In this document: positions 3,196 through 12,489 of the stretch, piece after piece
How positions within the stretch are numbered: the first letter of the stretch is position 1
How the letters are laid out: each line of letters starts with the position of its first letter
NCBI GenBank assembly: GCA_011049365.1
Contig: DSBD01000051.1
Coordinates: 1-16,874 of the forward strand
From: Candidatus Vogelbacteria bacterium
GTDB taxonomy: Bacteria; Patescibacteriota; Minisyncoccia; Phycocordibacterales; XYD1-FULL-46-19
Length of the DNA stretch: 16,874 bases
Direction: 5' to 3'
The notes under the pieces: generated by a model
What the model was told of the DNA's origin: nothing
The model's input: the letters and a program-made list of their open reading frames with translations, nothing else
Database searches by the model: none
Translations under genes and position numbers: made by a program

Positions 3196-5397
3196 ATGCG
3201 CCTTAAACAGTTAGAAATTTCTGGTTTTAAATCTTTTGCTAAAAAAACCCTCTTTTCTTTTGAGAGTCCCATAACAGCTATAGTTGGTCCTAATGGTTCT
3301 GGTAAATCTAATGTGGTTGAAGCTTTCCGTTTTGTTTTAGGGGAACAATCAATGAAATCTTTAAGAGGCAAGAAGGGTGAAGATTTAATTTTTTCGGGTA
3401 ATAGCGGTCGGCAAAATAGAGCTTCAGTCAAAGTTTTATTTGATAATCGGGATAGAAAATTAAATATAGATTTTGCTGAAGTGGAAATTTCTCGAGCCGT
3501 TGGGCGAGACGGAGTGAATGAATATGCTGTTAATGGTTCGCAGGTTAAATTAAGGGATATTTGGGAAATTCTGTCCGGTTTGGCTTTGGGTCCACAAACA
3601 ACTTCTATTATTAATCAAGGTGAAACTGATAGAATCCTCTTGGCTAATCCCAAAGATCGGCGAGAGATGATTGAAGAGGCCTTGGGTCTACGGGTTTATC
3701 TTTGGGAGATAGCCACCAGTGAAAAAAAACTTTCTAAGACAGAGGAAAATATCAAGCAGACTGAATCATTAAGAAGAGAAATTGCTCCTCATTTACGATT
3801 TTTGAAAAAACAAGTAGAACAGGTCAGGCAAATGGATATTTGGCGGAGTGAATTAAAGGTCAAGTATTTAGAGTACTTAAAAAGAGAGAACAAATATTTG
3901 GGTAATTTGGAAATGGAAATAAAAAAGAGTAAAGAAAAATTATTGGAGGAATATAATCGTAATAATCTTCGCTTTAAAGAACTGGAATTTATAAAAGAAA
4001 ATTATGAAGGAGTTGATAGTTTTGAAGAAAAAACTTTATCTGAAATAAATAATACTTTAAAGAGTATTAATGAAGAAAAAAATGAATTATTGCGTCGACT
4101 GGGACGAATTGAAGGTGTTTTAGAAATCAAAGAGGACAAAACTCAAAGTGAAGAAATAAAACAGTTTGTTTCTTCAGAAGAATTAAATTCTTTAATAAAA
4201 GAGGCTGATGATTATTGGTCTAAATTACCAACTGACATTGCTTCTTATAAAGACTTTTTTTCTTGGCTGAAAGATAAGCTCAATAATTTGATTAAAACTC
4301 CTATAAAGGAAGTTTCAACTGAGGCTCAAAATCAATTATCAAATTTACAAAAAGAAAAAGAAGAAATAATAGCTAATATAAATCTTTTGGAAGAAAAAAT
4401 TAGACAAGAAGAAGAAAAAAAGGTTAATTTACAAAAGAAAATAGAGAAAGCTAATCAGGATTCTCGTTTCATGGATAAAGAATATTATGAATTGAGAGCC
4501 CGTCAGACTGAATTAAATTCCAAACTTGACTTATTATCTTCTAAAGAAGAAAAATTAACTATTGAGAAAGAAAATTGGCAAAGAGAAATAGATGAGGCCT
4601 TGGTTTTGGTAGATAGAGAAATATTAGAGTATGAAAATCTAGGACCGGATGTTTCAAATGAAGAACCAAGAAGTCTACAAGAAGAGAGGCGTCGAGCCAT
4701 TGAGAAAATAAAAATAAGATTGGAAGATGCCGGTGTTGACCGAAATGATGTTTATAAAGAATACCAAGAAGTTAGTCAGCGAGATAAATTTTTAGAGAAA
4801 GAGATTATTGACCTTCGTCAGGCTTCTCAATCGCTTTTAGATGTTATAAAAGAATTAAAAATTAAGGTCAATAATGAATTTAATGAAGGTTTGGTAAAAA
4901 TAAATAAAGAATTTCAACACTTCTTCTCTTTAATGTTTGGCGGTGGGTCAGTTTCTTTAGATTTGGAAGAAATAAACAGTCGTCGTTCGCTGACTGATGA
5001 GGAACTAATGGAAAATGATGACGAAGAGGCAGAAACTCAAATTGGTTTAACTATTAAAGTTAATTTACCACGCAAAAAAATAAAAAGTTTAGAAATGTTA
5101 TCCGGCGGTGAGAGAGCTCTCATATCTATTGCTTTACTTTTTGCCGTCTCGCGAATAAATCCACCACCTTTTCTGATTTTAGATGAAACCGATGCGGCCT
5201 TAGATGAATCTAATTCTCGTCGCTATAGCGATATGATAGAGGAGTTAGCTAAATCTTCTCAACTTATTTTGGTTACTCATAATCGGGAGACGATGTCGCG
5301 AGCTGGGGTATTATATGGTGTTACTATGGATTCTGATGGAATATCGCGTCTTTTATCTATTAAGTTTGAAGAGGCGGAAAATTACGCTAAAAGATAA
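3196..5397 (+). CDS. smc: Compact SMC-family ATPase without a recognisable hinge
   Basis: SMC proteins form condensin rings that organise and segregate chromosomes. The N-terminal head starts MRLKQLEISGFKSFAKKT and has Walker A GPNGSGKS (31-38) followed by the SMC-typical LGEQSMKSLRGKKGEDLIFSG. The C-terminal head has the ABC signature LSGGE (635-639) and Walker B FLILDETDAALDE (D663, E664), again of SMC type. Two coiled-coil arms (about 165-310 and 390-580) flank a short helical stretch with no glycine-rich SMC hinge. At 733 residues it is far shorter than the usual 1150-1200. The open frame, good motifs and absence of a frameshift argue for a genuinely short protein. No scpA or scpB is in the window. 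Its stop lies 1 bp from that of the convergent rnr. Confidence 0.9.
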   Translation: MRLKQLEISGFKSFAKKTLFSFESPITAIVGPNGSGKSNVVEAFRFVLGEQSMKSLRGKKGEDLIFSGNSGRQNRASVKVLFDNRDRKLNIDFAEVEISRAVGRDGVNEYAVNGSQVKLRDIWEILSGLALGPQTTSIINQGETDRILLANPKDRREMIEEALGLRVYLWEIATSEKKLSKTEENIKQTESLRREIAPHLRFLKKQVEQVRQMDIWRSELKVKYLEYLKRENKYLGNLEMEIKKSKEKLLEEYNRNNLRFKELEFIKENYEGVDSFEEKTLSEINNTLKSINEEKNELLRRLGRIEGVLEIKEDKTQSEEIKQFVSSEELNSLIKEADDYWSKLPTDIASYKDFFSWLKDKLNNLIKTPIKEVSTEAQNQLSNLQKEKEEIIANINLLEEKIRQEEEKKVNLQKKIEKANQDSRFMDKEYYELRARQTELNSKLDLLSSKEEKLTIEKENWQREIDEALVLVDREILEYENLGPDVSNEEPRSLQEERRRAIEKIKIRLEDAGVDRNDVYKEYQEVSQRDKFLEKEIIDLRQASQSLLDVIKELKIKVNNEFNEGLVKINKEFQHFFSLMFGGGSVSLDLEEINSRRSLTDEELMENDDEEAETQIGLTIKVNLPRKKIKSLEMLSGGERALISIALLFAVSRINPPPFLILDETDAALDESNSRRYSDMIEELAKSSQLILVTHNRETMSRAGVLYGVTMDSDGISRLLSIKFEEAENYAKR

Positions 5398-5398
5398 T

Positions 5399-7297
5399 TT
5401 AGTCAACCAATTCAAAATCTATCCAGCCGTTTATCGTATTAACTTTTGCTAAACGAATTTTTATTTTATCCCCTAAAGAGTATTTTCTATTTCCTTTGGA
5501 AGTTAATTGAAGATTTTTTTCATCAAAATGATAATAACCTTTTAAATTAGATATTCTAACTAAACCTTCGGCGCCGGTTTCTTCTTCTTCAACAAAAAAA
5601 CCAAAAGAAGTAATAGCGACTATTATTCCTTGCGATTTGAAGCCGATTTTATCAGATAAATATTCTATTAATTTTAATTTTAAAGCTCGTCTTTCAATTT
5701 CAGCTATTTCAATTTCTCTCTCATTAGCTCTTGATATATTTTCCTCATTTAAGCCAATTTTTATTAGCGACGTAGAGTGAGTGAAATGAAAATGTTTTTT
5801 TACATTTTCATTTCCGAACCGAGGAGCTAATATAGGTATAACACTGCACGGCTCGGCCGGACGCAAGGACGAGCGAAGCAAGTTCGTATTATTACCTCGG
5901 GACTTTGCCCCGAGGGTATATATTTTGGTGGTTTGGTTTTTATTAATGATATCTTTCAAAAGATAGTGAATTATCAAATCAGGCCAACGTCTAATTGGTG
6001 AGGTGAAATGGCAATAATCTTTCAAAGCTAAGCCATAATGACCAATGTTTTTTGATGAATATTCGGCTTTAGCCAAAGAGCGGATGACTAATTTATGAAT
6101 TATTTCTTTTTGGGGGTGATTATCAATGTTTTTTAAAAAATCGCCCAAAACCAAAGAAGAAGTTTCCATTTTTTTGGCTGGAAAATTAAGTCCAAAATTT
6201 TTCAAAATTTGAGCCAATTGATTTATTTTATCAATCGGCGGATTATCGTGGATTCTATAAAGATGATTTTTTTTATTATTTTTATTTATTATCTCAGCCA
6301 CTTGACGATTGGCCAATAACATAAAATCTTCAATCATTTTTTCGGTTTTCAGTCTTTTTTTAGAATTAATGGCTATTATTTTACCTTGATTATTAAAAGT
6401 AAAATCCTTTTTTGCTTCTTCAAGTGGTAACATACCTTTTTTAATGTTTTTTTGCCGTATTTTGTTGGCTAAAGAATTTAATATTTTTAATTCTTTAAAA
6501 TGAGGACCTCTTTTAGTATCAATTATATTTTCTGCTTCTTGATAAGAAAATTTTTTCTTTGATTTAATGACTGTTTTTTCTAAATCAGCCGAAATGATCT
6601 GACCGGCAGTATCTATTTTAAATATGATTGATAGACATAAACGGTCTTCATTAGGTTTTAAACTACAGATTTGTTCGGAAAAAATTTTTGGCAAGAGATG
6701 GATTGTTTTACTGGGTAAATAGATTGAAAAATTTTGCTTAATGATTTGTTTGTAAATATCGCTATCTGGCTTGATGTAGAAAGAGACATCAGCTATATGA
6801 ACACCAATTTCATAAATATCATCCTCCAGTTTCTTCACTGACAAAGCATCATCAAAATCTTGGGCACTGGTCGGGTCAATAGTAAAAGTTGGAATTTGTC
6901 TATAATCTTTTCTGGTTGTTATTTCTTTCTGGATCCTGTCTGACCAGTTAGAAGAAAGTTCTTTTATTTCCGAAGAGTATTTGTCATATTTGTTTTCTGG
7001 TAAATTATGCCCAATCAGCAGAGCCTTTATTTCTGTTTGATATTTACCGGCCGGACCTATTATTTCTTTTATTTGACCATTTTTTTTTGATTTTAATCTT
7101 ATTATTGCCTTGTGATTATCATATTTTTCCGGGCAATCTTCTAAGTAAATAGCCCCAATATTTTCCTTTTTATTATCAGGAATAACTATCATTTTTTTAT
7201 TTATTTTTTTTACCAGACCAACAAATTCATAACCAGATTTAAAAATATCCGATTTTCCTCTTGTTTTTGGGGACTTCATTTTTTTCTTTTTGGGCAT
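5399..7297 (-). CDS. rnr: RNase R/RNase II-family exoribonuclease with repeat-derived insertion
   Basis: A 3'-to-5' hydrolytic exoribonuclease, 632 residues. A lysine-rich N-terminus and cold-shock-like region precede the RNB catalytic domain. The metal site IDPTSAQDFDDA holds D141, D147, D149 and D150, equivalent to RNase II D201, D207, D209 and D210. HFTSPIRRWPD (430-440) is the second RNB signature. A C-terminal S1 RNA-binding domain (about 555-630, GIIVAITSFGFFVEE) follows. Between RNB and S1, residues about 455-514 have no counterpart in the family and are encoded by two repeat-like blocks, yet the frame is kept, so the protein is probably functional. The start ATG at 7295-7297 lies 6 nt from a candidate -10 box. 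It is transcribed convergently with smc and divergently from rpsP. Confidence 0.93.
   Translation of the reverse strand: MPKKKKMKSPKTRGKSDIFKSGYEFVGLVKKINKKMIVIPDNKKENIGAIYLEDCPEKYDNHKAIIRLKSKKNGQIKEIIGPAGKYQTEIKALLIGHNLPENKYDKYSSEIKELSSNWSDRIQKEITTRKDYRQIPTFTIDPTSAQDFDDALSVKKLEDDIYEIGVHIADVSFYIKPDSDIYKQIIKQNFSIYLPSKTIHLLPKIFSEQICSLKPNEDRLCLSIIFKIDTAGQIISADLEKTVIKSKKKFSYQEAENIIDTKRGPHFKELKILNSLANKIRQKNIKKGMLPLEEAKKDFTFNNQGKIIAINSKKRLKTEKMIEDFMLLANRQVAEIINKNNKKNHLYRIHDNPPIDKINQLAQILKNFGLNFPAKKMETSSLVLGDFLKNIDNHPQKEIIHKLVIRSLAKAEYSSKNIGHYGLALKDYCHFTSPIRRWPDLIIHYLLKDIINKNQTTKIYTLGAKSRGNNTNLLRSSLRPAEPCSVIPILAPRFGNENVKKHFHFTHSTSLIKIGLNEENISRANEREIEIAEIERRALKLKLIEYLSDKIGFKSQGIIVAITSFGFFVEEEETGAEGLVRISNLKGYYHFDEKNLQLTSKGNRKYSLGDKIKIRLAKVNTINGWIDFELVD
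5758..5833 (+). repeat. Palindromic element copy 1, inside rnr
   Basis: A 76-nt block matching 9195-9268 in the same orientation. By hand, about 59 of 70 aligned positions outside the loop are identical. The shared left part is GCGACGTAGAGTGAG and the shared right part is CGARCCGAGGAGC. Between them is a 13-bp perfect stem (5783-5795 with 5802-5814) with a six-T loop. Read on the - strand it encodes rnr residues about 489-514 without a stop codon. Confidence 0.85.
5835..5920. repeat. Second repeat-like GC-richer block inside rnr
   Basis: Directly next to the palindromic element, this block encodes rnr residues about 460-488, which have no family counterpart. It is visibly richer in G and C than the surrounding gene. 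It contains a 7-bp perfect hairpin (5895-5901 with 5909-5915, 7-nt loop) and a GCAAG direct repeat, and is bounded by GGTATA at 5835-5840 and 5915-5920, which could be a target duplication or chance. No second copy exists in this window, so calling it a repeat is inference from its position and composition. Confidence 0.45.
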
Positions 7298-7303
7298 TAA
7301 GGA

Positions 7304-7332
7304 AGCATAACATGGCTGGATTTCTTTTTGAA
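7304..7332 (-). promoter_or_regulatory. Candidate promoter of rnr, possibly leaderless
   Basis: On the - strand: TTCAAA (7327-7332), a 17-nt spacer and TATGCT (7304-7309), each matching 4 of 6 consensus bases. The -10 box ends 6 nt before the rnr ATG. Its -35 box is only 4 bp from the -35 box of the divergent rpsP promoter, so the two may compete or be co-regulated. Confidence 0.4.
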
Positions 7333-7336
7333 GTTA

Positions 7337-7365
7337 TTGACCATTTTGACTTTTTCTGATAGCAT
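7337..7365 (+). promoter_or_regulatory. Candidate promoter of rpsP, possibly leaderless
   Basis: TTGACC (7337-7342), a 17-nt spacer and TAGCAT (7360-7365). The -10 box ends 7 nt before the ATG at 7373, so the transcript would start at about the start codon. It is back to back with the rnr promoter within a 75-bp intergenic gap. Confidence 0.5.
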
Positions 7366-7372
7366 TGTTTTC

Positions 7373-7894
7373 ATGTTAGTAATTAGATTACAAAGAGTTG
7401 GGCGTAAGAATGACCCACGTTTTCGTTTGGTTGTTACTGATTCTAAAAATGGACCCAAGAGTGGTAACTTTGTGGAAATTTTGGGTTCTCATAATCCCCG
7501 AGCCGGTAAGCCGGTCTTAAAGACCGAAAGAATACAATATTGGTTGTCAGTTGGCGCTAAAACTTCCGGCACTGTTCATAATATGCTAGTTGATGCTAAA
7601 ATAGTTGAGAGTAAAAAAATAAATGTTTTACCTAAGATGAAGTCGGTGGAGAAAAAAGAAAAGGTAAAAGAAGAAAAAGCTCCTGAGAGTAAAGAGACTT
7701 CAGAAAAATCTGCTCCGGCAGAAACAAAAGAAGAATCCAAGGAGGAAAAAATTGAGGAAGAAAAGAAAGAAGGAGTTAAAGAAGAGATAGTGGAAGAGAA
7801 GGCTAAAGCTAAAGATTCCTCCCAAAAAGAAATAATAGTTGAAGAGACTAAACAAGAGGCCCAAAAAGAATCTATCATCGAGGCAGAAAAATAA
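7373..7894 (+). CDS. rpsP: 30S ribosomal protein S16 with long charged tail
   Basis: S16 binds 16S rRNA and is needed for small-subunit assembly. I chose the ATG at 7373, because the family begins MLVIRLQRVGRKNDPRFRLV there. An in-frame ATG at 7328 would add 15 unrelated residues and would overlap the promoter. Residues 1-85 are a full S16 with DSKNGPKSGNFVEILG and RIQYWLSVGA. The remaining 88 or so residues are a low-complexity lysine/glutamate-rich tail, making the 173-residue protein about twice the usual length. Such a tail is likely disordered; its role is unknown. It opens the rpsP-khpA-trmD cluster, in which rimM, often found between khpA and trmD, is missing. Confidence 0.95.
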   Translation: MLVIRLQRVGRKNDPRFRLVVTDSKNGPKSGNFVEILGSHNPRAGKPVLKTERIQYWLSVGAKTSGTVHNMLVDAKIVESKKINVLPKMKSVEKKEKVKEEKAPESKETSEKSAPAETKEESKEEKIEEEKKEGVKEEIVEEKAKAKDSSQKEIIVEETKQEAQKESIIEAEK

Positions 7895-7903
7895 TATCAG
7901 GTT

Positions 7904-7931
7904 TTGACATTATTTTAATTTAGTTTAGAAT
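7904..7931 (+). promoter_or_regulatory. Candidate sigma70 promoter of khpA
   Basis: A consensus -35 box TTGACA (7904-7909), a 16-nt spacer and TAGAAT (7926-7931), just after the rpsP stop. Transcription would start near 7938 and give a leader of roughly 59 nt. The leader contains GGTT/AACC (7948-7951 with 7960-7963) followed by a run of T, a weak terminator-like hairpin that may or may not matter. Confidence 0.6.
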
Positions 7932-7996
7932 CTAAGAAGCGGTGATAGGTTGGTCGAATAACCGTTTTTACAAACCATTAGCGATTGCCAAAATTC

Positions 7997-8329
7997 ATGT
8001 CTGAAAACTTCAGTGACCAAGTATTTTTGGAATATGTCATCAAATCCTTGGTTGATAATCCGCAAGATGTAAAGATTGATCGCAAGGTTGATGAATTGGG
8101 TGTTTTACTCACCCTAGATATCAATCCGGCCGATATGGGTAAAATAATCGGTCGTCAAGGCAATACTGCCAAAGCCATCAGGACTCTCTTGAGGGTAGTT
8201 GGTATGAAAAATAATGCCCGAGTCAATCTGAAAATCAATGAACCGGAGGGATCGAGAAGAGATTCTCAAACTCAAACACCTTCGGCTTCAGAATCGGTTG
8301 ATCAAGCGATGCAGGATTTAAAACTCTAA
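7997..8329 (+). CDS. khpA: KH-domain RNA-binding protein KhpA
   Basis: A 110-residue protein with one KH domain of the KhpA (YlqC) family, small RNA-binding proteins encoded beside rpsP and trmD in many bacteria and linked to cell-envelope and small-RNA control in some Gram-positive species. The N-terminal helix LEYVIKSLVDNP and the loop GKIIGRQG (48-55, with the GxxG at 52-55), followed by AKAIRTLLRVVG, are diagnostic. The C-terminal 25 residues are serine/glutamine-rich and likely disordered. The ATG at 7997 is preferred to the TTG at 7985, as MSENFSDQVFLEYV is the usual beginning. Its own promoter lies upstream and a strong terminator downstream, so it may be a single-gene unit. Confidence 0.93.
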   Translation: MSENFSDQVFLEYVIKSLVDNPQDVKIDRKVDELGVLLTLDINPADMGKIIGRQGNTAKAIRTLLRVVGMKNNARVNLKINEPEGSRRDSQTQTPSASESVDQAMQDLKL

Positions 8330-8351
8330 TCTCTTATTTTTAGGGATGGAA

Positions 8352-8385
8352 GAAAAGACCGGCTTTGAGCCGGCCTTTTCTTTTT
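8352..8385 (+). terminator. Rho-independent terminator after khpA
   Basis: A hairpin of CCGGCT (8359-8364), loop TTG and AGCCGG (8368-8373), extended outward through an A/C mismatch to GAAAAG and CTTTTC, followed by TTTTT. It lies 23 nt after the khpA stop and 26 nt before trmD. The A-run on the other side means it could also act on the - strand. Confidence 0.88.
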
Positions 8386-8398
8386 GTCTATATATGTT

Positions 8399-8404
8399 TA
8401 GAAT
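8399..8404 (+). promoter_or_regulatory. Candidate -10 box of trmD, possibly leaderless
   Basis: TAGAAT ends 6 nt before the trmD ATG at 8411 and just after the khpA terminator, so trmD needs its own promoter. No good -35 box is visible at 15-18 nt spacing, because that stretch is the terminator's T-run. Confidence 0.4.
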
Positions 8405-8410
8405 ATCTCT

Positions 8411-9052
8411 ATGATACATTTTCATATTTTAAGCGCCTTTCCGGAAAGTTTTTCTTCTTATTTTTCTCAGTCCCTAATTAAGAGAGCGATAGAAAAGAAG
8501 ATTATAAAAGTTTCCATTTATGATTTGCGCGCTTTTGCTTCTGATAAAAGAAAAAGCATTGATGGTCGTCCTTATGGCGGTGGTCCGGGTATGGTTTTGT
8601 TGGCCGAGCCGATAATTAAAGCCATAAAGAAAATAAAAGGGCGGAAGAAAAATTTTAAGATAATTGTTACTTCAGCTGGAGGTAAAACTTTCTCTAATGA
8701 ATTGGCTGAGAAATGGAAGGGAGAATTTAAACATATTTTAATTATTTGTGGTCATTATGAAGGGATAGATGCTCGTTTGACAAAAATTTTTAAAGCTCAA
8801 GAAATATCTATCGGTCCATATATTTTGACCGGAGGAGAATTGCCAGCCCTGGTGATGGTAGATGTTATCACTAGACGTTTGGAGGGAGTTTTAGGAAAAG
8901 AAGAATCTGTGGAAGAAAAAAGGATTGCCAGTCATGAAGTTTATACTCGTCCGGAAATCATAGAATATCAGGGCAAGAAATATAAAGTGCCAAAAGTTTT
9001 ACTTTCCGGCCATCATAAAAAAATAGATGCTTGGCGAAAGAAAAAGAGTTAA
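8411..9052 (+). CDS. trmD: tRNA (guanine-37-N1)-methyltransferase
   Basis: TrmD methylates G37 next to the anticodon with S-adenosylmethionine and prevents +1 frameshifting. The 213-residue length is close to the usual 230-250. Knot-fold motifs are clear: DGRPYGGGPGM (51-61), CGHYEGID (113-120), SIGPYILTGGELPA (133-146), and YTRPE (178-182). The segment after GVLG is odd. Where most TrmDs have EEDSF with the catalytic aspartate (D169 in the gamma-proteobacterial enzymes), this one reads EEKRI (168-172), and the following stretch before YTRP is about four residues shorter. The protein is otherwise well conserved, so I take it as active TrmD with an altered catalytic loop. The gene stands alone between a terminator and the rpoB promoter. 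Confidence 0.94.
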   Translation: MIHFHILSAFPESFSSYFSQSLIKRAIEKKIIKVSIYDLRAFASDKRKSIDGRPYGGGPGMVLLAEPIIKAIKKIKGRKKNFKIIVTSAGGKTFSNELAEKWKGEFKHILIICGHYEGIDARLTKIFKAQEISIGPYILTGGELPALVMVDVITRRLEGVLGKEESVEEKRIASHEVYTRPEIIEYQGKKYKVPKVLLSGHHKKIDAWRKKKS

Positions 9053-9054
9053 AT

Positions 9055-9084
9055 TTGACTTTTTAGACCCTTTTAGGTTATAAT
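9055..9084 (+). promoter_or_regulatory. Strong sigma70-type promoter of rpoBC
   Basis: TTGACT (9055-9060), an 18-nt spacer and a perfect TATAAT (9079-9084), starting 3 nt after the trmD stop. It is the best consensus match in the window. Initiation would be near 9091, leaving an rpoB leader of about 235 nt. Confidence 0.8.
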
Positions 9085-9162
9085 TCTGACGATTGTTTTA
9101 AGCAGTTTGATTAAGTTCTGGAAGTCGTAATCCAGTTCCAAAAATAATTTAAATACAATTAA

Positions 9163-9202
9163 GCCACTTCAGATAGTTGCCTGAGGCGGTTTTGTTTTTA
9201 TT
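9163..9202 (+). terminator. Terminator-like hairpin in rpoB leader (possible attenuator)
   Basis: GCCACTTCAG (9163-9172) pairs with CTGAGGCGGT (9181-9190), with two G-T wobbles and one mismatch, and an 8-nt loop. TTTGTTTTTATT follows. Two further A-T pairs extend the base. It lies downstream of the rpoB promoter, so it would cut rpoBC transcription as an attenuator. It is too far from trmD to be only that gene's terminator. Confidence 0.5.
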
Positions 9203-9268
9203 GGCGACGTAGAGTGAGAGTAATGGAAAAGTTCCGACTTTTCCATTACCGAGCCGAGGAGCCAAGAT
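9195..9268 (+). repeat. Palindromic element copy 2, in rpoB leader
   Basis: A 74-nt copy of the block at 5758-5833 in the same orientation. It has a 13-bp perfect stem, 9220-9232 with 9237-9249, and a TCCG loop. Relative to copy 1, three stem pairs differ and all three are changed on both sides so that pairing is kept (9221/9248, 9226/9243, 9230/9239). The flanks GCGACGTAGAGTGAG and CGAGCCGAGGAGC are nearly identical to copy 1. The - strand is also free of stops in one frame across this copy. Confidence 0.85.
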
Positions 9269-9327
9269 TAGGTTTTATTGTTACATTTTTTTGATTTAAT
9301 TTAAAAATTAAAAGTTTTATTTTTACT

Positions 9328-12300
9328 ATGAAGCAAAAATATTTTTCACGCTACAAGAAACCCTTAGTCGAAATGCCCAATTTAGTTAAGAATCAAATTG
9401 ATTCCTATAATTGGTTAATAAAAGATGGATTAAAGGAAGTTTTCAAGGAGTTTTCGCCTATTACCGATTATACTGATAAAAAGTTTGAAATGTCTTTTAT
9501 TGATTACACTATAGACGAACCTAAATATGATGAATATTTTGCTAAAGAGAATAAGTTGTCTTATGAATCTTCATTGAAAGTGAAAGTTAAATTAAAAAAT
9601 AAAACTCTAAATAAAGAAAAGGAACAAGAAATATTCTTAGCTGATTTTCCGCTGATGACCGAACATGGAACATTTGTCATTAATGGTATTGAGAGAGTAA
9701 TTGTTCCACAAATTGCCAGAAGTTTCGGTGTTTTCTTCACTGCTAATGAAATTAGAGGCAATAAATATTTTGGCGCTAAAATTATTCCGGCTCGTGGCGC
9801 TTGGGTGGAGATGGAAATGGAGGCCGATGGACTTATTTATGTTCGCATAGATCGTCGTCGCAAATTTCCCATTTCTTATCTATTAAGGATTTTTGCTGAT
9901 AAAGAAAATTTCTCAACTGACAAAGAGGAAATCAAGAAGGTTTTAATTGATGCCGGCGCTAAATCTGAAGATGTTCAAAATCTTTTTATTAAAGACGAAA
10001 ACAAAGAAATAGACGATTGCTATTTAGGAGTCTATAAAAGACTAAGAGATAGTGAATTAGCTACAGTTGCCAACTCTAAGGAATTTGTTTTAGGTCTTTT
10101 TTCTAGAGAGAAATATGATTTTTCCACTGTTGGCCGATTACGTTTTAATTCTCGTTTTAACTTGCCAACCGGAGATGAAGTTCGCGAAGATCGCCTAATA
10201 ACATTTAAAGATTTAGTTTTGATTGTTAAGAAAGTTCTAGATTTGCAAAACGACCCGCAAGCTAAAGAAGATGATATAGATCATTTAGGTTTTAGAAGAG
10301 TTAGGAGTGTTGGCGAAACTTTTCAGCAGAAAATCAAAATCGGTATGACTCAAATGAAAAGAAATATTCAAGACAGGATGTCAACTATTGATACTGCTAC
10401 CTTATTACCAATCCAATTTGTTAGTCCTCGTCCTTTGCAAGCTAGGATTAGAGAGTTCTTTGCTACTAATCAGCTATCACAATTTATGAGTCAAGAGAAT
10501 ATTCTTTACGAGGTTGAACATTTAAGGACTTTATCGGCTTTAGGTCCGGGTGGTCTAACTAGGGAAAGGGCGGGTCTAGATGTCCGTGATGTTCACACTT
10601 CTCATTATGGCCGAGTTTGTCCGATTCATACTCCCGAAGGTCCGAATATTGGTTTGATTCTTCGTTTAACCGCTTATGCCAGAATAGATGAATTTGGTAT
10701 TATTGAGACTCCTTATAGAAAAGTAGTTGATGGTAAAATAACTTCGGAATTAGTTTATTTAAATGCCTTAGAAGAAGAGGAATATTATATTGCTCATGCC
10801 AGAGTTAGTTATGATGACGAAGGGCGATTATTAGATGATTTAGTAGAGGTTAGATATAAAGCCAAACCGACTTTGGTTTCACCTCAAGATGTTAACTTTA
10901 TAGATGTTTCTCCTAACCAACCATATTCGGTAGCTACTTCTATGATTCCTTTCTTGGAGCATGATGATGCTAATAGAACTTTGATGGGTTCTAATATGCA
11001 AAAACAATCAGTCCCTTGTATAAAACCGGAGGCCCCTTTGGTGGCTACTGGTATTGAAAATAAAGCGGCTCTGGATTCTGGTCGTTTAATTATTGCTAAG
11101 AAAGCCGGTCAAGTTAAGGCGGTTGATGGTAAAAAAATTGTTATTAAAAATACTGATGGTCAAGATGATGTTTACAACTTAATTAATTTCTCAAAAACCA
11201 ATGCTAATTCATGTCTCCATCAACGACCAATAGTTGAATTGGGTCAAGAAGTTAAGAAAGGCCAAGTTTTGGCTGACTCTTCTTCAACAGTTGGTGGTCA
11301 AATGTCGGTCGGCCAGAACGCCCTAGTAGCTTTTATACCTTGGTATGGCTATAATTATGAAGATGCGATTATTATTTCTGAAAAATTAGTTAAAGAAAAT
11401 AAATTCTCCAGTATCTATATAGAAGAATTTGATATAAGTGTTAGAGATACCAAACTTGGACCGGAGATAACAACTCATGATATACCCAATGTTAGTGAAG
11501 CTAAATTAAGAAATCTGGACGAGGAGGGAATAGTCAGAGTTGGGGCCGAAGTTGAACAAAATGATATTTTAGTCGGTAAGATTACTCCTAAAGGGGAAGT
11601 AGAATTAACTCCGGAAGAAAGACTTTTACGTTCTATTTTTGGCGAGAAGTCTCGAGAAGTTAAGGATTCTTCATTAAGAATGCCCCATGGCAAAAAGGGG
11701 AGAGTCATAAGAGTTAAAGTTTTTTCTCGCGATCATGGTGATAAATTAGAATCAGGAATTTTAAAGAAAATATATATTCAAGTAGCCCAGTGGAGAAATG
11801 TTTCTGCCGGTGATAAATTAGCGGGACGCCATGGTAACAAAGGGGTCATATCAAGAATATTACCAGAAGAGGATATGCCTTTTACTAAAGATGGTCAGTC
11901 AGTAGATATAATTTTAACTCCTTTGGGTGTTCCTTCTCGTATGAATTTGGGCCAGATTTTTGAAATGCATCTTGGTTTAGCAGCTCATACTCTAAATTAT
12001 CAAGCAATTTGCCCGCCTTTTATGGGAGCCACTGAAGAAGAAATTAAAATTGAATTAGAAAAAGCTGGTTTTCCAACAACTGGAAAGATAGATCTTTATG
12101 ATGGTCAAACTGGTGATAAATTTAACCAACCGATTGCTATTGGCTACATGTATATGCTTAAACTTAATCATATGGTTGAAGATAAGATACATAAACGCTC
12201 AATCGGTCCTTATTCCTTAATAACTCAACAACCGTTAGGGGGACGTTCTCAAGGTGGTGGTCAACGTTTTGGAGAAATGGAAGTCTGGGCCTTGGAAGGT

Positions 12301-12489
12301 TATGGCGCTGCTTATACTTTGCGTGAAATGCTTACTTATAAGTCAGACGATATTGCAGGTCGATCACAAGCTTTTGATTCTATTGTCAAAAATATACCTA
12401 TCCGCCCACCGCAAATACCAGCTTCTTTCAATGTTATGTTGAATGAATTACGCGGATTGGCTCTTGATATAGAACTTGAAAATTTTTAA
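9328..12489 (+). CDS. rpoB: DNA-directed RNA polymerase subunit beta
   Basis: The beta subunit forms half of the polymerase cleft. At 1053 residues it is at the short end for the family and lacks the large lineage-specific inserts of proteobacterial forms. Landmarks in order: LMTEHGTFVINGIERVIV near the start, the rifampicin region QLSQFMSQ...LSALGPGGLTRER (from Q382), HYGRVCPIHTPEGPNIGL, YNYEDAIIISE, GDKLAGRHGNKGVIS, and the C-terminal QPLGGRSQGGGQRFGEMEVWA. In the rifampicin pocket, S388 and T401 replace the residues equivalent to E. coli D516 and R529. The ATG at 9328 has no Shine-Dalgarno sequence. rpoC follows after 12 nt. Confidence 0.98.
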   Translation: MKQKYFSRYKKPLVEMPNLVKNQIDSYNWLIKDGLKEVFKEFSPITDYTDKKFEMSFIDYTIDEPKYDEYFAKENKLSYESSLKVKVKLKNKTLNKEKEQEIFLADFPLMTEHGTFVINGIERVIVPQIARSFGVFFTANEIRGNKYFGAKIIPARGAWVEMEMEADGLIYVRIDRRRKFPISYLLRIFADKENFSTDKEEIKKVLIDAGAKSEDVQNLFIKDENKEIDDCYLGVYKRLRDSELATVANSKEFVLGLFSREKYDFSTVGRLRFNSRFNLPTGDEVREDRLITFKDLVLIVKKVLDLQNDPQAKEDDIDHLGFRRVRSVGETFQQKIKIGMTQMKRNIQDRMSTIDTATLLPIQFVSPRPLQARIREFFATNQLSQFMSQENILYEVEHLRTLSALGPGGLTRERAGLDVRDVHTSHYGRVCPIHTPEGPNIGLILRLTAYARIDEFGIIETPYRKVVDGKITSELVYLNALEEEEYYIAHARVSYDDEGRLLDDLVEVRYKAKPTLVSPQDVNFIDVSPNQPYSVATSMIPFLEHDDANRTLMGSNMQKQSVPCIKPEAPLVATGIENKAALDSGRLIIAKKAGQVKAVDGKKIVIKNTDGQDDVYNLINFSKTNANSCLHQRPIVELGQEVKKGQVLADSSSTVGGQMSVGQNALVAFIPWYGYNYEDAIIISEKLVKENKFSSIYIEEFDISVRDTKLGPEITTHDIPNVSEAKLRNLDEEGIVRVGAEVEQNDILVGKITPKGEVELTPEERLLRSIFGEKSREVKDSSLRMPHGKKGRVIRVKVFSRDHGDKLESGILKKIYIQVAQWRNVSAGDKLAGRHGNKGVISRILPEEDMPFTKDGQSVDIILTPLGVPSRMNLGQIFEMHLGLAAHTLNYQAICPPFMGATEEEIKIELEKAGFPTTGKIDLYDGQTGDKFNQPIAIGYMYMLKLNHMVEDKIHKRSIGPYSLITQQPLGGRSQGGGQRFGEMEVWALEGYGAAYTLREMLTYKSDDIAGRSQAFDSIVKNIPIRPPQIPASFNVMLNELRGLALDIELENF

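Follow-up and report, generated by a model that had tools for sequence, protein, structure and literature searches.

A structurally selected hairpin element, widespread in Patescibacteria and very probably mobile

The stretch of DNA analysed here, called the window, covers positions 1-16,874 of contig DSBD01000051.1 (assembly GCA_011049365.1) from Candidatus Vogelbacteria bacterium, and the 435-kb assembly to which it belongs (83% complete) is called the window genome. Two copies of a palindromic element lie in it, both described on the + strand. Copy 1, a complete element of 159 bp or 53 codons (5764..5922), sits in frame and antisense within an RNase R-type gene of the - strand (5399..7297; 632 amino acids with RNB and S1 domains, assigned from its open reading frame (ORF) and by homologue comparison). 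Copy 2, a complete element of 77 bp (9201..9277), is found in the leader of rpoB (9328..12489, + strand; recognised by reading its translation, no family search having been run), and its end is 50 bp away from the rpoB start codon. An initial annotation had reported two palindromes at these places, with 13-bp perfect stems, loops of six T and of TCCG, and shared flanks. Direct reading agreed on all of this, including the host gene and the leader, as well as on the three stem differences between the copies, at positions 2, 7 and 11, each of which is changed on both sides with pairing kept.

The element itself turned out to be larger than the hairpins first described, as an outer stem, a conserved section and tails reaching 5922 and 9277 had been missed. 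Hairpin 1 of copy 1 (5764..5830) is made of an outer stem TTAGC/GCTAA, a conserved section, and a 13-bp variable stem of type A closed by a T6 loop, with arms at 5783..5795 and 5802..5814. The 5′ side of the conserved section, GACGTAGAGTGAG, lies at 5769..5781, where tandem G.A pairs and bulged positions are our own reading, and its 3′ side, CGAACCGAGGA, at 5815..5825. A long tail follows (5831..5922), a second structured part with GC-rich hairpins that ends in ...GGGTATATA. Hairpin 1 of copy 2 (9201..9265) has the outer stem TTGGC/GCCAA, so that this stem too covaries between the window copies, and a variable stem of type B with arms at 9220..9232 and 9237..9249 and loop TCCG. Its short tail is GATTAGGTTTTA, the right end at 9277 being set by comparison with other short-tail copies and not from an empty site. 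Arms were read directly in both copies. Both fold far better than 200 shuffled sequences (z of -7.06 and -7.59, + strand). The two had also been credited with a stop-free frame on the - strand; copy 1 does have one, and copy 2 has two, but some 25 stop-free codons are not remarkable by themselves. Directly before copy 2, at 9162-9200, a hairpin followed by a T-run gives the rpoB leader a terminator- or attenuator-like appearance.

Over the whole family, the element is a rod hairpin composed of the outer stem, a conserved mismatched section rich in G.A and the variable stem, directly followed by a tail that is mostly a second hairpin, for a total of about 76-160 bp. The outer stem is found as TTAGC/GCTAA and in many covarying versions; the variable stem has 12 pairs in the covariance model and 13 in the window copies, and its loop is variable. 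Between the two helices, the conserved section is GACGTAGAGYGAG on one side and CGARCCGAGGA on the other, and is non-Watson-Crick. In our own reading it may be composed of tandem G.A pairs followed by a GUA/GA bulge, some single Watson-Crick pairs and another G.A tandem. A second class of copies (L199, L201, L202, L204, L205 and L215) has GARRTGAGYGAG on the 5′ side and, in 5 of the 6, CGARCGAAYGAG on the 3′ side, which again yield tandem G.A pairs at regular spacing. The motif GTAG is present inside the conserved 5′ section of the common class and absent from the second. Second-hairpin arms are visible in the tails, for example TATAGTCC...GGACTATA or AAACCG...CGGTTTA, and some copies of the window genome have a short tail only, such as GGAAGGGTTTTA. 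A long tail of the copy 1 kind starts after 12 of 30 own-genome copies examined, and ends in TATA...TATA.

Two side observations concern these structures. The GC-rich hairpins in the long tail at 5831-5922, such as GGACGAGCGAAGCGAGTTC, again have a C-GA-GC...GC-GA-G arrangement, and related hairpins recur in the tails of other lineages (L031-L060). Near position 1501 of L025 (G000:C3:13334), a copy retains TTAGCGACGTAGAGT and then diverges; it is perhaps a truncated element.

That the two copies belong to a larger family, as first proposed, was confirmed. A 13-base piece of the flank has 12 exact places in the window genome. When up to 3 mismatches were allowed the flank pattern had 60 places, against 54 for a reversed control, and therefore only places with 0 to 2 mismatches are informative. 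A covariance model, R1, built from 26 copies of the window genome, gave 32 full-length matches in that genome at E ≤6e-16 and one more at 3e-6; copies cut by contig ends are present as well. R1 detected the family in 24 of 61 genomes, and a second model, R2, built from copies of other genomes, in 21 of 286 genomes from across the phylum. The window genome is counted in both surveys, the 61 being itself and its relatives, and both ratios are lower bounds due to stricter filters and few scored candidates; genome G059 was positive with R1 and negative with R2. An exact pattern found at least 96 stretches in named genomes, of which two were dropped, L108 because it lacked the stem and was titled Rhodospirillales, and L094 because of a run of N. 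The 94 stretches kept each contain a model match, for a total of 97. Among the matches listed, 80 titles comprised about 66 Patescibacteria lineages, 13 called only "bacterium", and the Rhodospirillales one. As a side remark, G343, a 1.5-Mb genome of the same genus as G230, had 34 DNA matches to the L190 stretch, many of them over the element unit, and is possibly a very rich carrier.

Outside these genomes the searches were negative. The exact pattern, in the common class and one form of the second, had no match in viral contigs, and 50 viral stretches preselected by a 15-base piece reached at most 25.4 bits with the model, which we take as chance. A plasmid search gave no match to the copies; in a phage search copy 2 had none and copy 1 a single 26-base match with an E value of 0.5. 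An Rfam scan of the window gave two matches, which score under the gathering threshold and lie elsewhere than the element. In the literature searched on palindromic, REP (repetitive extragenic palindromic), hairpin or structured-RNA elements of Patescibacteria or the candidate phyla radiation, no description of the element was recognised, and its conserved sequence strings were found in no paper; most subscription journals and all preprints were outside the scope of that search.

Covariation was measured on 97 rows from the 94 loci chosen by the exact pattern. Paired cells amounted to 96.2%, against 73.1% after shuffling, cells changed on both sides to 347 against 75.5, and the covariation score to 0.662 against 0.207; none of 500 shuffles reached the observed value for any of the three, and the signal was lost when the partner was slid. 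Many further copies exist, then, and their stem changes are largely compensatory, so that neither of the two outcomes which the initial annotation said would refute it occurred. Two limits apply to these figures and to the mispair counts below: related sequences contribute cells that depend on one another, and standard pairs are favoured when the alignment is fitted. Since the conserved section is fixed by choice in pattern-chosen rows, its conservation was checked in 29 rows found by R1, a model which still leans towards that section: each position of the imperfect section was kept by 23 to 29 of the 29 rows, and pair 18-60 was A-T instead of G-C in two of them. Mispairs were G.T in 60 cases and A.C in 13 among pattern-chosen rows, and 34 and 11 in 56 rows that were not chosen by pattern. 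The excess of G.T over A.C points to one strand as the one that folds. Short hits (limit 55 bases) were excluded from the analyses of the conserved section, unpatterned rows, left flank, terminators and empty sites. GC skew was also tried as an indicator of strand bias; it was weak (49 of 80, p=0.03) and was not used.

Such changes on both arms could in principle arise with no selection at all, if template switching during replication kept the palindrome perfect and both arms changed together. The discrete stem types found within one genome, with arms perfect or nearly so, are what this process would give. The mismatched section right beside them, however, is conserved without being corrected, so that palindrome correction alone is insufficient; moreover, G.T exceeds A.C, and outer and variable stems covary across many lineages. 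We hold this explanation to be highly improbable. The initial annotation had suspected selection on a folded form from two copies; selection on the fold of the + strand best explains the covariation, the mispairs and the conserved section as they appear in the alignments.

Three comparisons of filled and empty sites were obtained. Compared with 13 homologues from the same family, the RNase R protein of the window is longer by exactly 53 residues in every case, and the extra residues match 5764-5922 (L264, a fragment, and L265, another piece of G004, were left out). At L164, a 96-bp unit of 32 codons lies in frame, read in the sense direction, in the gene for alanyl-tRNA synthetase (AlaRS), whose product exceeds that of 13 homologues by 32 to 39 residues over a wider stretch, with small gaps elsewhere adding to the differences; four of the 17 loci, the window genome's own among them, were not taken by the alignment filter. 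The third comparison is an intergenic pair at the DNA level, in which L159 has a 105-bp copy where L100 is uninterrupted; without the copy, the flanks align with two single-base gaps and a few mismatches, and L100 has a copy of its own just upstream of the empty site. A same-genus search for the empty site of one copy found no clean site.

The left flank was examined in 142 copies of other genomes. T, T and A were found at positions -3, -2 and -1 with frequencies of 0.89, 0.90 and 0.97, and the bias was down to background by about -8. From this composition, the TTTA directly 5′ of copy 1 (5760..5763, +) and of copy 2 (9197..9200, +) are presumed targets; in some own-genome copies the flank has GA or GT instead. 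Within the 159-bp array a copy is preceded by ATATA, which belongs to the copy before it; TTTA is therefore a context and not a part of the element. No target duplication of 4 bases or more was seen at the three sites, and terminal inverted repeats were absent when the first 12 bases were compared to the reverse complement of the last 12 in four elements whose ends are known or were inferred. The three comparisons (159, 96 and 105 bp) are consistent with clean insertion on the 3′ side of a T-rich sequence resembling TTA. Insertion into the T-runs of terminators was considered as well and rejected, as upstream folding was not above control (p=0.066, n=133, other genomes; p=0.83, n=26, window genome).

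Arrays in the window genome, where array orientation was read, are direct head-to-tail repeats with periods of 76-79, 88 and 159 bp, the last being the length of copy 1 and the period of the array on contig C48. Among 30 own copies, 19 stems were of type A, 3 of type B and 8 of type C, each with more than one type of tail, and arrays mix types. Such mixing of stems and tails would arise if new copies inserted one after another at the right ends of older ones and if copies also exchanged parts.

Placement was recorded for 95 copies of other genomes. The upstream gene had the same direction in 36 cases and the opposite one in 31, and 13 copies had no upstream gene in the stretch. Fifteen copies were inside ORFs of at least 80 amino acids, many of these cases being short or N-terminal, so that in-frame insertion is real without being the rule. 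Seven ORF-borne proteins were scanned, and four matched Pfam (IMPDH, SBP_bac_5, glycosyltransferase and AlaRS). In the IMPDH and SBP_bac_5 ORFs the element precedes the domain, and translation may truly start only after it; the glycosyltransferase ORF has it between two domains. Flanking genes were hardly shared, the largest cluster being 3 proteins from 3 loci.

We conclude that the element is real, widespread and structurally selected, and very probably mobile. On balance we consider it probable, with reservations, that it is a non-autonomous mobile element of Patescibacteria, in which one strand forms a rod hairpin, containing G.A modules and the variable stem, and then a tail which is mostly a second hairpin. 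The folded single strand would be the substrate of an enzyme acting in trans, as with REPs or the ends of IS200/IS605, and would act as single-stranded DNA, which we prefer, or as RNA. The conserved mismatched section may be what the enzyme recognises, and the two similar TTA-like sites, in the left flank and at the right end, may be the cut sites. Arrays would then form as new copies insert at the right ends of old ones.

A number of results weigh against this reading. Transposition itself was not observed. Pairs with any two-sided change numbered 16, against 13.9 after shuffling, and 35 of 500 shuffles came up to that number, so that this measure adds little. For the second hairpin, a test of right ends, which were preset to TA, found perfect 6-bp arms in 25% of cases against 13% after simple shuffling; this is moderate, and hairpin 2 therefore rests more on the visible arms and on the empty sites. 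A short target duplication is possible, as left flank and right end share TA at RNase R and AlaRS, and TTA at L159. This last point would suit a miniature element moved by a DDE transposase of the IS630/Tc1-mariner group, whose members duplicate TA, all the more as most copies have TA at the end of their left flank. We find such an origin very improbable: the four elements have no terminal inverted repeats, the last two bases differ between the two sides in 5 of 11 short-tail own copies, and the conserved T at -3 exceeds what a TA target needs.

In the window genome, furthermore, the upstream gene was co-directed at 16 of 20 sites (p=0.012; 30 of the 32 strong copies were examined, and arrays were collapsed to sites by hand). 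This bias departs from the wide sample above, and could hint at an RNA role downstream of genes. The element might be a structured RNA family, cis-regulatory or small RNA, used by many genes and acting as a fold in the transcript; strong covariation, tolerance of G.T on one strand and the position of window-genome copies on the sense 3′ side of genes all speak for it, and tandem G.A modules are typical of RNA. Against these stand the lack of a fixed direction or gene association in the 95 copies of other genomes, one copy being antisense in RNase R and another sense in AlaRS, the clean insertions relative to homologues, the many genomes of the same order without a match, and the lack of an Rfam match at the element in the window. 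An RNA family is in our view rather unlikely.

Also against a mobile element, no mobiliser was found among the four enzyme families searched, namely Y1 transposases, reverse transcriptases, serine recombinases and TnpB; DDE transposases, tyrosine recombinases and relaxases lay outside that search. The initial annotation had proposed looking nearby for a REP-associated, TnpA_REP-like transposase, and such a partner was not supported. Y1 genes occurred in 16 of 24 positive and 25 of 37 negative genomes (Fisher test, p=1) and were absent from the search results in 8 of the 24; in the set of 21 element-bearing genomes searched for all families, they were found in 13. The element was at 1 of 34 Y1 loci, about 1.5 kb being read on each side where the contig allows. 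The only Y1 match of the window genome (L219, G000:C28:447-707) has an in-frame stop. Serine recombinases were found in 11 of the 21 element-bearing and 14 of 21 element-free genomes, and reverse transcriptases in 7 and 12, respectively. TnpB was over the cut-off in 0 of these 42 genomes, with two matches below it, in G029 and G118. None of these three families was positively associated with the element. Four positive genomes (G053, G018, G058 and G118) had neither Y1, reverse transcriptase nor serine recombinase, and G053 is 95% complete with 11 element matches. The mobiliser could belong to some other enzyme family, be encoded in sequence that is missing, or have disappeared once the element had spread.

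Two further observations were made during this search. The single Y1-like gene with an element nearby, at L245, is a weak match of 21.5 bits, below the cut-off. L219 adjoins a gene that reads like an outer-membrane protein (no family search was run), unexpected in Patescibacteria, and its contig may be foreign.

These counts bear on two more explanations. A REP family of the GTAG type, moved by a REP-associated tyrosine transposase (RAYT, or TnpA_REP), would account for the GTAG in the 5′ section of the common class, and the imperfect one-strand hairpin resembles that of E. coli REPs, whose mismatches are needed according to the part of PMC8266576 consulted. Yet the element was beside only 1 of the 34 Y1 loci, no Y1 gene was found in 8 of the 24 positive genomes, GTAG is absent from the second class, and window-genome arrays are direct repeats instead of inverted pairs; we regard it as quite improbable. 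Alternatively, RNA of the element might be reverse transcribed and inserted at T-rich sites, in the manner of a short interspersed nuclear element. A T-rich target and the preference for one folded strand would suit this, but reverse transcriptases are found in fewer element-bearing than element-free genomes, none was found in the window genome (83% complete), and their apparent absence from the nearly complete, copy-rich G053 points the same way. RNA-mediated spread is accordingly improbable.

With a non-autonomous element moved as a folded single strand kept as the preferred reading, known systems offer partial parallels. The likeness to Rickettsia palindromic elements (RPE), first drawn in the initial annotation, is apt as an analogy, RPE being in the excerpts consulted dispersed repeats of about 150 bp, in frame in unrelated genes (PMC10969869, PMC3733652). 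Here also a short palindromic repeat is in frame in genes (53 codons in RNase R, 32 in AlaRS), but the in-gene copies are not the rule, most copies examined being outside genes. Moreover, the host phylum differs, part of the element is mismatched and yet conserved, and the two copies that clearly lie within genes are read in opposite directions and do not give one conserved peptide. The likeness is one of description, as sequences were not compared.

As for REPs and bacterial interspersed mosaic elements (BIME), they share with the element hairpin repeats that are mostly intergenic and sometimes in genes. The element is longer, with its tail mostly a second hairpin, and has direct arrays where REPs form head-to-head pairs. 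E. coli REPs show strand specificity and need a mismatched bulge for activity (PMC8266576), a useful parallel for the conserved mismatched section; CGTC REPs are likewise described, in an excerpt of PMC3733652, as without a dedicated transposase. GTAG REPs carry an unpaired GTAG (or GTGG) directly 5′ of the foot of the hairpin, whereas the GTAG of the element is within the conserved section of the common class, not at the foot, and is not conserved in the second class; unlike RAYT-associated REPs, the element is not near Y1 genes.

IS200/IS605 elements are not known to duplicate their target on insertion, and a duplication of up to 2-3 bp is possible at the sites of our element. Both have one-strand hairpins, lack terminal inverted repeats and insert 3′ of a short fixed sequence; the hairpins of the element are however terminal and not subterminal, and neither Y1 nor TnpB tracks it. 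The hairpin and tetranucleotide logic of IS200/IS605 ends is taken from part of PMC6006769. Since the partner tests failed, we do not file the element under REP or IS200/IS605, despite its working like their single-strand substrates. Double-hairpin elements of fungal mitochondrial DNA, with two adjacent hairpins, dispersed and sometimes in genes in the section of PMC2800124 consulted, belong to organelle DNA, and their sequences were not compared to ours.

One remaining feature of the window is the ORF at 3196-5397, which reads as an SMC-type protein of 733 amino acids. This is short for the SMC family, and the protein perhaps has a shortened coiled coil.

More tentatively, and with some doubt, the element may stand for a new class of elements, a double hairpin moved as a folded single strand by an enzyme that is not a Y1 transposase, reverse transcriptase, serine recombinase or TnpB, and which would recognise it via the tandem G.A stack. 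Patescibacteria genomes are small, and yet the window genome carries 32 strong copies in 435 kb, with the family found in frame in RNase R and AlaRS genes. With a covarying, strand-biased fold, defined ends and three filled and empty sites, the question of what moves the element becomes testable: it is a known substrate without a known enzyme.

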